From a virus, in IMG/VR virus record IMGVR_UViG_3300032265_002548, positions 1 to 20,315 of that record: a stretch of 20,315 nucleotides of DNA. One strand, written 5' to 3'. Shown one piece after another: positions 1-7,166 of this stretch. The translations under genes were made by a program, and so were the position numbers. Below the pieces are notes generated by a model. It was not told the DNA's origin. It saw only the letters and a program-made list of their open reading frames with translations, and ran no database searches. The number at the start of each line of letters is the position of its first letter. The first letter of the stretch is position 1.

Positions 1-558
1 AACAGCGGAAGCACTGGTGGAGCTGCTGGAGGCTCAAGAGCTATCGTAATGAAAACACCAACAATTAAAAATGTTGGAACACGACCACCAGATAACCTGA
101 GACTATCTACTCATATTCAGCTTTCATTTGTTTCTACGCACGCAGCAGCTGATCACTGTGCGGTTAGTGGACCAAATTCGGAAAGAATTGTTCAGAATCT
201 ACAACTGTTGGCTCAGAATTGCCTCGAGAAAATCAAAGTCAAATATCCTGATATGAAAGTATCTTCGGGATACAGAAACTATGTTCCTGCAGGTGGTGCA
301 ACAAAATCACAGCACTTATTAGGACAGGCAGCAGATATGCAGTTTAACTGTTCAGCAAGACAGTATTATGAGATCGCGAAATGGATCAAAGATAATGTTC
401 CATATGACCAATTACTTTTGGAGTATAAGAACTTTGGAACAAAGAATCCTTGGATTCATATCTCGTTTAAACCAACGGGAAACAAAAATGAAGTTATGAC
501 TTTCTTTAATCACAAGAAGCATTCTTCTGGACTGGTAAACCTAAGACCGAATGGATAA
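1..558 (+). CDS. C-terminal part of a virion protein with an M15-type peptidase domain (likely baseplate hub/spike)
   Basis: The reading frame is open from the first base of the window, so this is the 3' end of a longer gene. An ATG at 49 lies in frame but has no well-placed ribosome-binding site. The first residues (NSGSTGGAAGG) look like a flexible Gly/Ser linker. The remaining ~170 residues match the M15 zinc D,D-/L,D-carboxypeptidase fold. Counting from the ATG at 49, SSGYR (72-76) is followed by SQHLLGQAAD (87-96), which supplies zinc ligands His89 and Asp96, and WIHIS (135-139) supplies His137. All expected metal ligands are present, so the domain should be active on peptide cross-bridges of peptidoglycan. 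Family knowledge: T4 gp5 carries a lysozyme for local wall digestion during injection, and related phages can carry a peptidase instead. Position before genes 25 and 6 fits a gp5-like hub, but that identity is inference. A separate endolysin is less likely because of the open N-terminal linker. Confidence 0.75.
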   Translation, partial: NSGSTGGAAGGSRAIVMKTPTIKNVGTRPPDNLRLSTHIQLSFVSTHAAADHCAVSGPNSERIVQNLQLLAQNCLEKIKVKYPDMKVSSGYRNYVPAGGATKSQHLLGQAADMQFNCSARQYYEIAKWIKDNVPYDQLLLEYKNFGTKNPWIHISFKPTGNKNEVMTFFNHKKHSSGLVNLRPNG

Positions 559-560
559 AA

Positions 561-586
561 AAGAGGGGACATTTCTGCCCCCTCTT
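561..586 (-). terminator. Intrinsic terminator of the leftward block
   Basis: AAGAGGGG (561-568) and CCCCTCTT (579-586) form a perfect 8-bp stem with a 10-base loop. Read on the minus strand, the hairpin is followed immediately by TTTTTT, the classical U-tract of a rho-independent terminator. It lies just after the last leftward gene (stop at 609). On the plus strand the stem is followed by TTCACT without a U-tract, so it should stop rightward transcription less well, although it sits right after the M15-domain gene and may limit convergent read-through. Confidence 0.85.
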
Positions 587-608
587 CACTCCAGCGATGG
601 AGATTTTA

Positions 609-1181
609 TCAGAAGCTGTGGTTAAGTGCCACAGCAACAGCATCGGAACGAGTAGTACCAGATGTGCGATAATACTTCACACCAACAGTATTACCAGATC
701 CAATATCATATCCAAGTCCACCTTCTAGGCGATCTTCATCAAGACGACGAGTTGCCTTGAATGCTTCGCGATGACGATAACCGATGGTGGCTGAGACTGG
801 ACCATACACTGTGCGCGATGCCTTTGCACCAGCACCCCAGAAAGTATAGTCGTCACCCTGCTTCAGAGCCTGACCGACTTCAGCATACGCGAGCGTATGA
901 AAGCCAAGAACGTCAGGGAGAGCTGGACCAACCTTAGCTGAGATCTTTGAATCAAGTGCACCAGCATGAGCTGCTTGTTTTACTTGAATTTCTGCACCAT
1001 AGGTGAGAAAGGAATTCAAAGGCGCATTATACTGTACGTCATATTCTGTCGAATCAGTTGCACCATTGCGTACATCAGAAAAACGTGCTTCAGCAGTAAT
1101 AGTTCCTGCTGTTCCTGCCATAGCAGGAGTAGAAACAATAACAACAGCAGCTGCGGTTAGAGCAAAAATTGTCTTCATCAT
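609..1181 (-). CDS. Secreted outer-membrane-type beta-barrel protein (phage-encoded)
   Basis: This 190-aa protein begins with a clear signal peptide: MMK, a hydrophobic Ala/Val-rich core (residues 5-19), and a type I cleavage site of the form TPAMA|GT after Ala22. The mature ~168 residues show alternating hydrophobic/polar strands rich in aromatics and Gly (for example around 57-69, 95-105, 111-121, 128-136, 152-160, 165-172). The protein ends in Asn-His-Ser-Phe; a terminal Phe is the usual BAM-recognition signature of outer-membrane barrels. Length suits an 8-10-stranded barrel. It is the last gene of the leftward block, just before the terminator. No exact family is recognised; it resembles small OmpW/OmpA/Opa-type porins only in general design. 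Possible roles (receptor masking, superinfection exclusion, envelope change) are inference. The start is preceded by a weak AAAGAAAG element, and the second ATG is a possible alternative. Confidence 0.75.
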   Translation of the reverse strand: MMKTIFALTAAAVVIVSTPAMAGTAGTITAEARFSDVRNGATDSTEYDVQYNAPLNSFLTYGAEIQVKQAAHAGALDSKISAKVGPALPDVLGFHTLAYAEVGQALKQGDDYTFWGAGAKASRTVYGPVSATIGYRHREAFKATRRLDEDRLEGGLGYDIGSGNTVGVKYYRTSGTTRSDAVAVALNHSF

Positions 1182-1197
1182 AGATTAATTACTTTCT

Positions 1198-1326
1198 TTA
1201 ATTGAGTTTCTTTTTGAGTTCGGAAACAACACCATTCCAGTATTCTTTCGCCCATTTAGATTGAGAATTATTCAATGCTTGATATGCGTTATTAATTCTC
1301 TTTAGAGTCACCATTTCACTTTGCAT
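1198..1326 (-). CDS. Small 42-aa hypothetical protein
   Basis: The longest open frame here would begin at 1440 and overlap the cytidylyltransferase gene by 125 bases, which is unlikely. The ATG at 1326-1324 gives a 42-residue protein (MQSEMVTLKR...SELKKKLN) that overlaps the upstream stop codon by 11 bases. It is preceded by a good AAGGA ribosome-binding site about six bases away, inside the end of the cytidylyltransferase gene. A second ATG four codons later is possible. The product looks helical and basic at its C-terminus, with two Trp residues. No function is recognised. Translational coupling to the preceding gene is likely. Confidence 0.55.
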   Translation of the reverse strand: MQSEMVTLKRINNAYQALNNSQSKWAKEYWNGVVSELKKKLN

Positions 1327-1723
1327 CTTTAATCCTTTTTCGCAATTCACTAGTACTGAGATTGTGGTTGCGGCTATTATAGTAGACATAGATAGGAAGA
1401 TCAGATCCTGTAAATTCTTTGTCCACATAATCTTCCCCAATAATCCTAACGTCGATGTTCATCGTGCTTAGCAGCGTCAGAAGATCTTGTTCAGTTTCAT
1501 AGGGGATGATCTCATTGACAACACTCAGTGCCTTTAGCTGAACGTAGCGCTCAAAGACACTTTGTATTGGTCTATTCTTTGTAACTGGTCGATCAATGGT
1601 AGGGTCTGTATGCAACCCAACAATCAGATAATCACATTGCTCGGCAGCCTCTTGTAGCATCAGCACATGACCAGCATGCAGAAGATCGAAAGCACCAGCA
1701 GTAAAACCAATTTGCATTTTCAT
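1316..1723 (-). CDS. TagD-like cytidylyltransferase (nucleotidyltransferase)
   Basis: A 135-aa protein of the HxGH nucleotidyltransferase superfamily, close in size to glycerol-3-phosphate cytidylyltransferase (TagD, about 130 aa). Visible motifs are the N-terminal GAFDLLHAGH (10-19) with the signature HAGH, RYVQLKAL (59-66), IIGEDY (94-99), and STSELRKRI (123-131), the family's nucleotide-binding Ser/Thr-Ser...Arg motif. These enzymes transfer CMP (or AMP) from the nucleotide triphosphate to a phosphorylated substrate, releasing pyrophosphate; the true substrate here cannot be read from sequence. It starts three bases after the speD stop codon and overlaps the next small gene, so it is co-transcribed. 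Similar genes occur in T4-like cyanophages and related phages, where their role is unclear. Supply of activated precursors for cell-surface or DNA modification is inference. Confidence 0.85.
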   Translation of the reverse strand: MKMQIGFTAGAFDLLHAGHVLMLQEAAEQCDYLIVGLHTDPTIDRPVTKNRPIQSVFERYVQLKALSVVNEIIPYETEQDLLTLLSTMNIDVRIIGEDYVDKEFTGSDLPIYVYYNSRNHNLSTSELRKRIKDAK

Positions 1724-1726
1724 AAT

Positions 1727-2107
1727 TTACTTATCAGCCTGTCTTGTCAAATACATTTGACGTATTGTCTTGGGGTTGAAAAACTTGACCACATTGGCAA
1801 GGACAATATCATCATCAAATTGCTTACAGCTGAAGATGTCAATATAACCTTCTTGAGTATAATCATTGAAATGGGCAACGATGTTTGAAGTCTCAATAAA
1901 CTGTAAAACAGTCCAACCTTCGAGGTGTTCAACACCGTGACCAAAATGAATAATTTGTGGTTCGCCGTAAGGCACCATGTCTATATCGACAACCAGTTCC
2001 TTTACCCATTTTTCTAGGATCTCGGGATTTGTGATTGCTTCTTTATCACACTGAGCGCAATCAAGTAGCAAATGATAGCCCCAATAACCGCTAGTAGTCC
2101 TGATCAT
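1727..2107 (-). CDS. speD: S-adenosylmethionine decarboxylase-like pyruvoyl enzyme
   Basis: This 126-aa protein has the length and pattern of class 1 AdoMet decarboxylase proenzymes (SpeD/SpeH). It shows GYHLLLDC (10-17), then FIETSNIVAH (70-79), with Ser74 as the expected self-cleavage residue that becomes the pyruvoyl group and His79 five residues later, and IDIFSC (89-94) with Cys94. These correspond to Ser63, His68 and Cys83 of the bacterial enzymes. The residue before the cleavage serine is Thr73, not the usual Glu. The enzyme would make decarboxylated AdoMet for spermidine synthesis, or act as an amino-acid decarboxylase, since some SpeD relatives have changed substrate. It overlaps the preceding 59-aa gene by 17 bases and has a GAGGA element 11 bases before its ATG. 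Family assignment is firm; substrate is not. Confidence 0.83.
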   Translation of the reverse strand: MIRTTSGYWGYHLLLDCAQCDKEAITNPEILEKWVKELVVDIDMVPYGEPQIIHFGHGVEHLEGWTVLQFIETSNIVAHFNDYTQEGYIDIFSCKQFDDDIVLANVVKFFNPKTIRQMYLTRQADK

Positions 2108-2272: not shown

Positions 2273-2893
2273 TTAGTCTTCTGAGTCCTCGTCATCGGAT
2301 GAGCCATGTACTCTCTTTATGTGCTGGGCTAGAGGTCCTGGCAAAAATAGCTTGTCCTCGTTTGAAGATTCGCAGCCAAAAGGGCAAGGGATTGCTCGGT
2401 CGCGACCTGACCGCCCATCCTTTTTTGGCTCCCCATCCTCCTCGACAATACTAACCTGATTGCTTTCAGGCAGAAGTCCAGGGAATGTTTTGGCAACAAG
2501 ATCATAGGTGATACCCTTGTACGGCATCGTCTTGTCCTTTATTGCTAGGAGAAGGTCGGCGTCATTCGGATCAAGTGCCTCGAGCAGCTGAACGAATAGA
2601 GTTTCGCGACGAAGCTGATGCATCGGCGGAGCAAGTCCCTCGATAAACAGATACAGCTTCTTTGCTTCGCGGTAAAGAGTTCCCTGAGCATCAACACTCT
2701 TTTCGAGCTTTGTGAAATTAGGTGCGCCGTCAGGAAGAACAAACTTAACTTCCGGATGGAAGCAAGCGTGTAGGATTTGAATCAATGCCTTATTGTTTGC
2801 ACATGTGCCAAGAGCATCCTGTCGTTCCTGAATATTTTTAATCTTGGAGATCTCAGAAAGAATCTCAGAAATACCCATGGTATTATTTGCCAT
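2273..2893 (-). CDS. DUF6433-like phage protein with C-terminal zinc-finger-like motif
   Basis: A ~206-aa protein. Its first ~140 residues resemble a family of uncharacterised T4-like phage proteins that I recall as DUF6433, with recognisable blocks such as GTLYREAKKLYLFIEG, LFVQLLEALDPNDADLLLAI and PYKGITYDLVAKTFPGLLPE. After a charged linker comes CPFGC...HIKRVH: Cys170 and Cys174 (x3), then 16 residues, His191 and His196 (x4), a C2H2-like zinc-binding arrangement, and then a very acidic tail (SSDDEDSED). The ATG at 2893 lies nine bases after AAAGG; an ATG two codons upstream (2899) is only three bases from it and is less likely. It overlaps the preceding 55-aa gene. Function unknown; the finger suggests nucleic-acid or protein binding (inference). 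Confidence 0.72.
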   Translation of the reverse strand: MANNTMGISEILSEISKIKNIQERQDALGTCANNKALIQILHACFHPEVKFVLPDGAPNFTKLEKSVDAQGTLYREAKKLYLFIEGLAPPMHQLRRETLFVQLLEALDPNDADLLLAIKDKTMPYKGITYDLVAKTFPGLLPESNQVSIVEEDGEPKKDGRSGRDRAIPCPFGCESSNEDKLFLPGPLAQHIKRVHGSSDDEDSED

Positions 2894-3050
2894 TTTCATT
2901 CGCCTTTAGATATTGTTTGAATTCATTAACAACACCAATAAACCTGCGTAGAACTTCATCGCCATTTGCTTTTTTTACGCTGTATATGTTGTCACCTCTA
3001 TATAGCAAAGCGTATAACTTGGCTGCTTCAGCTTGTTCTTGAGAAGTCAT
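2883..3050 (-). CDS. Small 55-aa hypothetical protein
   Basis: The ATG at 3050-3048 starts two bases after the RNase H stop codon, with GGAGA about ten bases upstream inside the end of that gene. The frame ends at TAA 2885-2883, overlapping the start of the next gene. The product (MTSQEQAEAAKLYALLYRGD...) looks mainly helical and slightly basic, with no signal peptide, Cys residues or recognised motif. It fills the whole gap between RNase H and the DUF6433-like gene, which is the main support for it being real. Function unknown. Confidence 0.65.
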   Translation of the reverse strand: MTSQEQAEAAKLYALLYRGDNIYSVKKANGDEVLRRFIGVVNEFKQYLKANENGK

Positions 3051-3052
3051 TA

Positions 3053-3889
3053 TTAAAAATCTCCAATAGAATCTTGAAGGTTCTTCAGCTTGTATTCAAT
3101 AAAGTAATTGAATAGCTTGCTCTTGTCGCCATATTCCTGACTGTCAAACTGCTCAAGCACCTGAGCCTCGATATAGTCAGGAATGCAGTCAAAGTCAATC
3201 AACTGCTTATTGCGATAGAAGTTACGCTTGGTGTTTTCGTCAACATCATTAGGATCGTATGAGATCTGTTCAATGCGCTTGGCAGTAACAGGCTTCTGAC
3301 GCAGACCCATGACAAAGGTATTATCAGGGGAAAGGCAATTGGGGATACCATCGCCAGCGTCACCCTTGATGATATGTTCCATCAGGTATCGCTCTGGGTA
3401 GGAACAATAAAGTTCCTTCTTGGTCAGAGGGCTATACTGAGTAACAAGAGGGTACTTCTGAAGCTGCTGATAATCCTTATCGCTCGATGCGATCATGATG
3501 CCTTCAGCATGGTAGTGCTTGGTAAGAACTGCGACGATGTCATCAGCCTCGGCTGTCGGCACCTGAATAACCTTGTATGGGAAGTTCTCGCGCAACTCAA
3601 TCTTAAACTTGTCGAGAGCCTTGAAGATGGCATTCCAGTCAATGTCGGACTCTTCACGAGCCTTCTTACGATGAGCCTTGTAGTAAGGGAAGATATCCTT
3701 ACGCCAGTAGTTCTTATCGTCACAAGCGATGACCACGTTACCGTGACCCTTGTACTTATTGAGGATAGTGCGAATGCTGTTAAGAAGAATATGACGAAGG
3801 AGTTCCTCGTCAATATCAACTTTCTTCTGACTACCAATCTGCGCGAACACAGATGAGATCAGGAACTGGGACAGGTCAATAATAATCAT
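3053..3889 (-). CDS. rnh: RNase H / 5'-3' exonuclease of the T4 rnh (FEN-1-like) family
   Basis: A 278-aa protein matching T4 RNase H (305 aa), which removes RNA primers and adjacent DNA from lagging-strand fragments. The acidic metal-binding residues of the PIN/FEN nuclease family are all visible: Asp5 in MIIIDLSQ; Asp57-Asp58 in VIACDDKNYWRKDIFP, followed by the helical-arch motif YYKAHR (69-74); EADD (114-117); SSDKDYQQL (135-143) with Asp137 and Asp139; and GDAGDGIPN (176-184), the helix-hairpin region with Asp177 and Asp180. The gene sits directly downstream of one of the repeated sigma70-like promoters, with a short leader and a weak AAGG element upstream, and leads a run of genes reaching the terminator near 561. 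Assignment is strong because every motif is in order. Confidence 0.93.
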   Translation of the reverse strand: MIIIDLSQFLISSVFAQIGSQKKVDIDEELLRHILLNSIRTILNKYKGHGNVVIACDDKNYWRKDIFPYYKAHRKKAREESDIDWNAIFKALDKFKIELRENFPYKVIQVPTAEADDIVAVLTKHYHAEGIMIASSDKDYQQLQKYPLVTQYSPLTKKELYCSYPERYLMEHIIKGDAGDGIPNCLSPDNTFVMGLRQKPVTAKRIEQISYDPNDVDENTKRNFYRNKQLIDFDCIPDYIEAQVLEQFDSQEYGDKSKLFNYFIEYKLKNLQDSIGDF

Positions 3890-6392: not shown

Positions 6393-6421
6393 ACTATAAC
6401 CTAGTTTTTAAAATAAGTCAA
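6393..6421 (-). promoter_or_regulatory. Sigma70-like early promoter before the 57-aa gene
   Basis: On the minus strand, TTGACT (6421-6416), a 17-base spacer ending in CTAGGT, and TATAGT (6398-6393). The -35 box overlaps the stop codon of the SprT-like gene (6420-6418). It is nearly identical to the copies at 5748-5776 and 6901-6929. Confidence 0.87.
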
Positions 6422-6882
6422 GCACTTTTATGCTCGACCCATTTATGAAACAGACCGACCTCGCGCCCGAAGGCTTCGACCTCCCAAGGGCTGTCAAAAT
6501 ATTGGTGTTCCTTACCCTTGGGCTTCCAGATCTCGCCCATCCAACGGCTGGTCATTTTGAGACCACCACGAGTAGGAACCATAATTCCGCTTTGAAGCTG
6601 GTTCTTGGCGTACTGGCGGACATGGACCATCTCGTGACCGAGGGTCTTGATCATCTCATTGATGTCCTGCTTTTTGAGACCGATGGTGAACCAACGAGGG
6701 TTTCTGACACCGTCCTCGTTAATACACTCGCCATCAACGGGCGAGCGATTGCTGACCTCGATGTCGAGGGTGAGGCGGCGAACCATCCTAGGATCCATTA
6801 GCTGGGCTGCGAAAAAATTCGCCGCCTCGGTGAGCTCTGCCTTGAGCTTTTTGCTGGTGGTGCCTGTAATCGTGATGTTCAT
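6418..6882 (-). CDS. SprT-like zinc metallopeptidase
   Basis: A 154-aa protein with the zinc-peptidase motif HEMVH (83-87) in a helix of the form MIKTLGHEMVHVRQY. Downstream, SPWEVEAFGRE (131-141) offers Glu134 or Glu136 as the third metal ligand, the arrangement seen in SprT-like/gluzincin-type proteins. The N-terminal half (residues 1-70) is a mixed alpha/beta region with GVRNPRWFTIGL just before the catalytic helix. Similar small metallopeptidases occur in T4-like phages; their substrates are unknown. The start has AAGGAG six bases upstream, downstream of its own promoter. Two sampled 60-base rows of this gene are 52% GC (31/60 each) against 33% (20/60) for one sampled row of the virion operon, so its composition differs from the late genes. 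Confidence 0.82.
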   Translation of the reverse strand: MNITITGTTSKKLKAELTEAANFFAAQLMDPRMVRRLTLDIEVSNRSPVDGECINEDGVRNPRWFTIGLKKQDINEMIKTLGHEMVHVRQYAKNQLQSGIMVPTRGGLKMTSRWMGEIWKPKGKEHQYFDSPWEVEAFGREVGLFHKWVEHKSA

Positions 6883-7131: not shown

Positions 7132-7166
7132 AGTTTCTTGCTGTATTTATATAAATAAAAGAAACT
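7132..7166. promoter_or_regulatory. Palindromic T4-type late promoter of the baseplate operon
   Basis: TATAAATA at 7150-7157, the T4 late-promoter consensus, lies 20 bases before the gene 25 start. It is the right half of a perfect 14-base palindrome (7144-7157), so the minus strand also reads TATAAATA (7151-7144). Outside it, AGTTTCTT (7132-7139) and AAGAAACT (7159-7166) form an 8-base inverted repeat. GGAGG (7169-7173) is the strong ribosome-binding site for gene 25. The rightward promoter is well supported; leftward activity is inference. Confidence 0.8.

Follow-up and report, generated by a model that had tools for sequence, protein, structure and literature searches.

What does a T4-like phage gain from an outer-membrane β-barrel that is encoded apart from its virion genes? 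The question is raised by a 20,315-base virus record (the window, meaning the whole stretch of DNA analysed), which is a piece of a T4-like aquatic phage genome. In the window, gp25 and gp6 lie in a plus-strand virion operon (gp6 of Caulobacter phage Cr30 is 41% identical to the window gp6), and a minus-strand block of genes for RNase H, DUF6433, S-adenosylmethionine (AdoMet) decarboxylase and a cytidylyltransferase has the barrel gene as its last member. The relevant features are as follows.

49..558, plus strand: 3′ part of a gp5-type baseplate hub gene, including an M15 peptidase domain; converges on the barrel gene
560..587, minus strand: intrinsic terminator hairpin, a 12-bp stem and then a U run, directly past the barrel stop codon
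609..1181, minus strand: outer-membrane barrel coding sequence, ATG start, 190 aa, stop included
612..1115, minus strand: predicted mature ten-strand barrel, the exchanged segment (AlphaFold2 model and nucleotide alignment)
1116..1181, minus strand: signal-peptide codons 1–22 (MMKTIFALTAAAVVIVSTPAMA), upstream anchor of the exchange
1182..1197, minus strand: spacer with a ribosome-binding-site-like AAAGAAAG
1198..1326, minus strand: 42-aa ORF between the cytidylyltransferase and barrel genes
1316..1723, minus strand: cytidylyltransferase-like protein (PF01467, phrog_7878), barrel-gene block
1727..2107, minus strand: AdoMet decarboxylase (PF02675), barrel-gene block
2273..2899, minus strand: DUF6433 protein (PF20025, phrog_461), barrel-gene block
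3053..3889, minus strand: T4-type RNase H / 5′-3′ exonuclease, barrel-gene block
7144..7157: two overlapping divergent TATAAATA motifs of the T4 late-promoter type (motif search)

By inspection, the N-terminus of the barrel protein, MMKTIFALTAAAVVIVSTPAMA followed by Gly, is a Sec signal peptide with cleavage between AMA and Gly; the n, h and c regions and the AxA-type cleavage site are preserved across the aligned relatives. The protein ends in VALNHSF, and the terminal Phe is common to most relatives (Leu in contigs L070 and L072). An independent contig carries a 98%-identical copy. An AlphaFold2 model from 11 sequences of the long barrel type described below (the window's own and IMG/VR relatives) has ten antiparallel strands within residues 27–189 (27–35, 44–54, 59–70, 76–87, 94–106, 112–126, 129–140, 148–161, 164–175 and 179–189), with pLDDT 78.0 and pTM 0.73; an earlier model from five sequences was poor (pLDDT 38.5). 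When the mature sequence was shuffled 20,000 times, 2 shuffles equalled the in-out alternation of the modelled strands. A fold search matched the model to OpcA (Z 20.9, rmsd 2.7, 166 residues), Pla (Z 15.7), the designed TMB10 (Z 14.2) and OmpT (Z 13.9), so that an even number of antiparallel amphipathic strands superposes on closed ten-strand outer-membrane barrels. Since the alternation exceeds that of shuffled sequences and the matches are ten-strand barrels, the structural reading of the preliminary description, which had predicted an outer-membrane barrel from the signal peptide, the alternating strands and the C-terminal Phe and had proposed structure prediction as a check, is right. We are highly confident of both fold and location: on this model the protein is a ten-stranded outer-membrane barrel, encoded among non-virion genes and probably no part of the virion. 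Its expression in infection and its insertion into the host outer membrane would follow from signal and fold.

The fold is common to OpcA, OmpT and Pla, but identity to OpcA and the omptins is 9–12% and the loops of the window protein are much shorter. We rejected an omptin protease (no match to an omptin profile of Pfam or NCBIfam at the thresholds applied, despite Z 13.9–15.7) and an OpcA adhesin (no OpcA profile of Pfam matched even at E 1, despite Z 20.9) as identities. No protease or adhesin role is implied by the likeness in fold.

The gene had also been read as standing apart from the virion operon. Its strand, the gene content of its block and the absence of the exact TATAAATA late-promoter motif from the 160 bases upstream of it and of its relatives' genes agree with this; yet a minus-strand copy of the motif lies 6 kb upstream of the barrel gene, ahead of the block. 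This copy belongs to the pair at 7144..7157, a near-palindrome that separates the minus block from the gp25-gp6 virion operon, and the minus block might be transcribed late from it. In the barrel gene, GC at third codon positions (0.277) resembles that of the virion genes (about 0.26–0.34), most other minus-block genes being higher (up to 0.66); this hints at late-type codon usage, not uniform among relatives. Thus the gene does lie outside the virion operon, but its convergent 3′ neighbour, beyond a terminator that folds with −25.5 kcal/mol (z −5.1, positions 550–600), is a virion gene, the gp5 hub. The hub is complete in the relative L002 (738 aa, L002 2115-4331). The gp5-like hub fused to an M15 peptidase (window 49-558, L002 2115-4331) adjoins a separate OB-domain protein, and Sinorhizobium phage phiM12 is annotated with a similar hub / OB-domain split. 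The window also encodes a putative HExxH metalloprotease-like protein (GHEMVH; phrog_10499) at 6418-6882, and such a protein occurs near the barrel gene in L157 too, on an otherwise different contig.

The arrangement of cytidylyltransferase, barrel and convergent gp5 is present in L002, L003, L004 and L024; in L027 and L028 the cytidylyltransferase is followed by the barrel and the gp5 side is missing or different. Two types of barrel fill this slot. The long type (188–212 aa) is found in the window, L002 and L024, and elsewhere in L070/L072 and L293-L304. The short type (156–166 aa overall) is found in L003, L004, L027 and L028, where it has 156–159 aa; it matches PF13505 and, from its sequence pattern, is predicted to have eight strands. 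A profile comparison of the two types gives a probability of 96.9%, to which the signal peptide contributes a part.

We compared the window at the nucleotide level with L003, the closest of its relatives to have the alternative allele. Flanking proteins of the two genomes are 67–94% identical, whereas the barrels are about 31% identical (190 versus 159 aa). In nucleotides, the upstream 42-codon ORF is 93.0% identical and the signal-peptide codons are 84.8% identical; identity falls to 49.1% over alignable columns of the mature region (with 105 gap columns), and is 96.6% in the terminator stretch. The gp5 3′ end is 74.0% identical, hence conservation is weaker at the downstream boundary than at the upstream one. 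Trees of flanks and barrels conflict strongly: concatenated flank proteins group the window with L003 (window+L024 rejected, AU P-value 4e–62), and the barrel tree groups it with L024 (window+L003 rejected, AU P-value 1e–7). Alignments and trees together thus support well what is new here, namely that the mature barrel acts as a cassette open to exchange, while the signal peptide before it and the terminator after it stay conserved. Because L024 is the next relative by flanks, the simplest history makes the long barrel the older one in the clade; as to direction, the L003 lineage would have acquired a short barrel behind the old signal peptide. The L003 barrel is 84% identical to that of L161, whose contig has no other shared neighbours, and therefore a wider allele pool exists; short-type barrels are found in other phages in several unrelated contexts. 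The AdoMet decarboxylase gene (window 1727-2107) looks mosaic too: its product is 91% identical to that of L003 and 61–65% to those of L027 and L033, and only 29–33% to those of L004, L006, L024, L026 and L028, despite much closer other neighbours.

Within the long type, insertions amount to 97 residues in predicted extracellular loops or edges versus 12 in periplasmic turns, and the loops of the barrel are short (3–8 residues). Near the first predicted extracellular loop, the short-type barrels of L161 (5001-5498) and L160/L157 carry either a tandem duplication (FDAELYVGFDAELY) or insertions of 5 residues. One contig of the clade, L029, extends 6.5 kb past the AdoMet decarboxylase gene and has no barrel, so the barrel is dispensable. 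Between the window and L002 copies we counted 4 synonymous changes and 3 nonsynonymous ones; the resulting dN/dS of about 0.26 comes from a very small sample, and with just 7 substitutions we make no claim of positive selection.

The preliminary description had asked whether the gene is a captured host porin, and the answer depends on the type. An alignment scan of bacterial genomes for the short type, based on two short peptide patterns and of correspondingly limited taxonomic reach, found 46 loci, nearly all in genomes that are named as Sphingomonadales, and Sphingomonadales are a plausible guess for the hosts. A tree built from 12 short-type phage proteins and 24 from hosts has a branch, supported at 98/100, that sets all the phage copies apart as a single clade. 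On this ground we rejected the idea that the short type was captured recently as a host porin; the same branch speaks for an old entry of the short type into phages and against captures that were recent and repeated. For the long type, 385 alphaproteobacterial and 298 order-level genomes, searched without a cellular positive control, yielded no convincing relative; three borderline fragments came up (best E 1.5e–4). A capture of host origin therefore fits the short type in having Sphingomonadales relatives, but not in its separate phage clade, and it finds no cellular counterpart for the long type. Queried by tblastn, 50,697 phage records contained nothing that matched the window barrel, nor the barrels of the short and L293 types; the barrel family is one without cultured members in that collection.

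The earlier statement that phages rarely carry such proteins proved too strong. Fold models of uncultured Caudovirales barrels in BFVD (A0A6J5KT01, A0A6J5TAD3 and others; 181–213 aa) reach a TM-score of about 0.8 against the window model at 18–30% identity, and the many phage barrels there include those of Aeromonas phage phiAS5 and Vibrio phage nt-1. Members of phage_OMP PF24653 and phrog_417 are, like the window protein, phage-encoded, barrel-like and located outside the virion genes of T4-like phages. Phrog_417 is weakly similar to it in sequence (E 4e–4), but members have 118–129 aa as against 190, and the window protein scores 18.5 bits against PF24653, below the curated cut-off of 27 bits (26.0 bits for the L003 allele). 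Cyanophage members of PF24653 are Syn9 gp222, P-SSM2_246 and P-SSM2_247; the P-SSM2 gene pair (AY939844 188757-189737), annotated DUF680, directly precedes pstS. PF13505 (OMP_b-brl, cut-off 28.7 bits) has no match in the window protein and scores 45.6–54.6 bits with L003, L004, L027 and L028. The PF13505 barrels of Sphingomonadales and phages are comparable in that the syntenic phage copies share the window's slot and have a similar signal peptide; they differ in size and predicted strand number, as given above. In the T4-like Pelagibacter phage HTVC008M, an 'outer membrane porin' (AGE60376.1) is encoded between gp5 and gp25/gp6, but it has 285 aa, lies on the strand of the virion genes and has no family-profile similarity to the window barrel. 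The window protein does not match the Lom family (phrog_108), for which L027 alone gave a weak match (E 0.016). Barrels thus recur in T4-like phages, and that of the window is of a kind already known there. Our searches of openly accessible papers turned up no work on the function of such a barrel.

The outer membrane seems to be the destination of several proteins of these phages. CsgG and CsgF, with a curlin-repeat-like protein in L295, are encoded in barrel-carrying T4-like phages (G001 36567-37193, L326 18371-18874, L295 7340-9280), and CsgG also occurs in some contigs with other barrel alleles and in the cultured phages Melnitz and HTVC008M.

We suggest that the barrel would serve to remodel the surface of the infected cell. 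The phage would produce it in infection, the cell would export it by Sec and insert it into its own outer membrane, and the host surface would be changed as a result. The chief benefit would be that competing or sister phages could no longer adsorb or inject, through superinfection exclusion or interference with the receptor, and variants would be exchanged as different competitors or host surfaces require different barrels. We prefer surface remodelling against competing phages because it explains best why the exposed domain alone was exchanged, and the pattern of allele exchange favours a surface role, as does the concentration of long-type insertions in the predicted extracellular loops. 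Our commitment is tentative, and we put remodelling, most likely against superinfection, at somewhat less than an even chance. That T4-like phages of aquatic habitats reserve a locus for the cell surface, at which the barrel cassette is swapped and a phage-type-specific surface decides which phages enter, seems to us rather doubtful. For the LPS genes of P-SSM2, a change of the infected cell's surface against other phages has been proposed (PMC2984593), and a similar surface role has been proposed for an S-layer-type protein of Melnitz (PMC9004378). Against remodelling, the exchange of a surface protein also fits host-tuned nutrient uptake or envelope support. Extracellular loops are, moreover, the most variable part of any outer-membrane protein, and we further count against remodelling the short loops, the lack of a barrel in L029, the match of L293 to a virion PHROG and the possible late transcription.

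Envelope physiology, in which the barrel would serve as a structural element or a small channel and preserve the integrity of the outer membrane or aid uptake in place of host proteins that are no longer made, is in our judgement unlikely, if well short of negligible. The position of the P-SSM2 PF24653 pair before pstS, which encodes a phosphate-binding protein, is the best hint for uptake, and the annotated porin of HTVC008M at a comparable position and the small-molecule enzymes in the barrel gene's block point the same way. However, the lumen of ten-stranded barrels this small is usually filled with side chains, and free diffusion is therefore unlikely; the window protein also scores under the PF24653 cut-off, and the barrel alleles vary while the adjacent enzymes are mostly constant. 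The remaining explanations are weaker than both remodelling and envelope physiology. The barrel could help lysis, weakening the outer membrane or joining phage CsgG/CsgF pores in timing or completing it, given that CsgG is encoded in the near-identical relative G001 and the relative G002, and CsgF in G001, and that phage CsgGF has been proposed as a lysis regulator (PMC9004378). We consider this improbable, as the barrel gene of G001 is not adjacent to csgGF, no late-promoter motif is near the barrel gene, and some barrel contigs, though fragments, have no CsgG match. Hardly better placed, and a shade less probable, is passive cargo, a host-derived gene that circulates among phages with little benefit: the barrel is not universal in the clade and occurs in unrelated contexts, but its reading frame, signal peptide and fold are preserved across deep divergence, all 12 short-type phage copies lie together apart from the 24 host proteins, and the low dN/dS, for what so small a sample is worth, also speaks against it. 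Least probable of all is a virion component that travels with the particle and takes effect when the next cell is infected. The long-type L293 barrel weakly matches phrog_8260, a virion structural protein (E 0.0047), and the barrel gene of L028 is directly followed by gp25 and gp6 in equal direction; but in the window the gene lies on the strand opposite to the virion genes, and a signal peptide with a barrel fold would be ill-suited to a T4-like virion assembled in the cytoplasm.

Competition for hosts is known among lytic phages, but of the outer-membrane barrels that lytic phages make, few have a known role. At this locus, barrel alleles are swapped precisely between signal peptide and terminator in otherwise closely related genomes, which provides a natural pair for comparison. 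A comparison of the two alleles would make the function of the outer-membrane proteins that recur in T4-like phages of marine and fresh waters testable.
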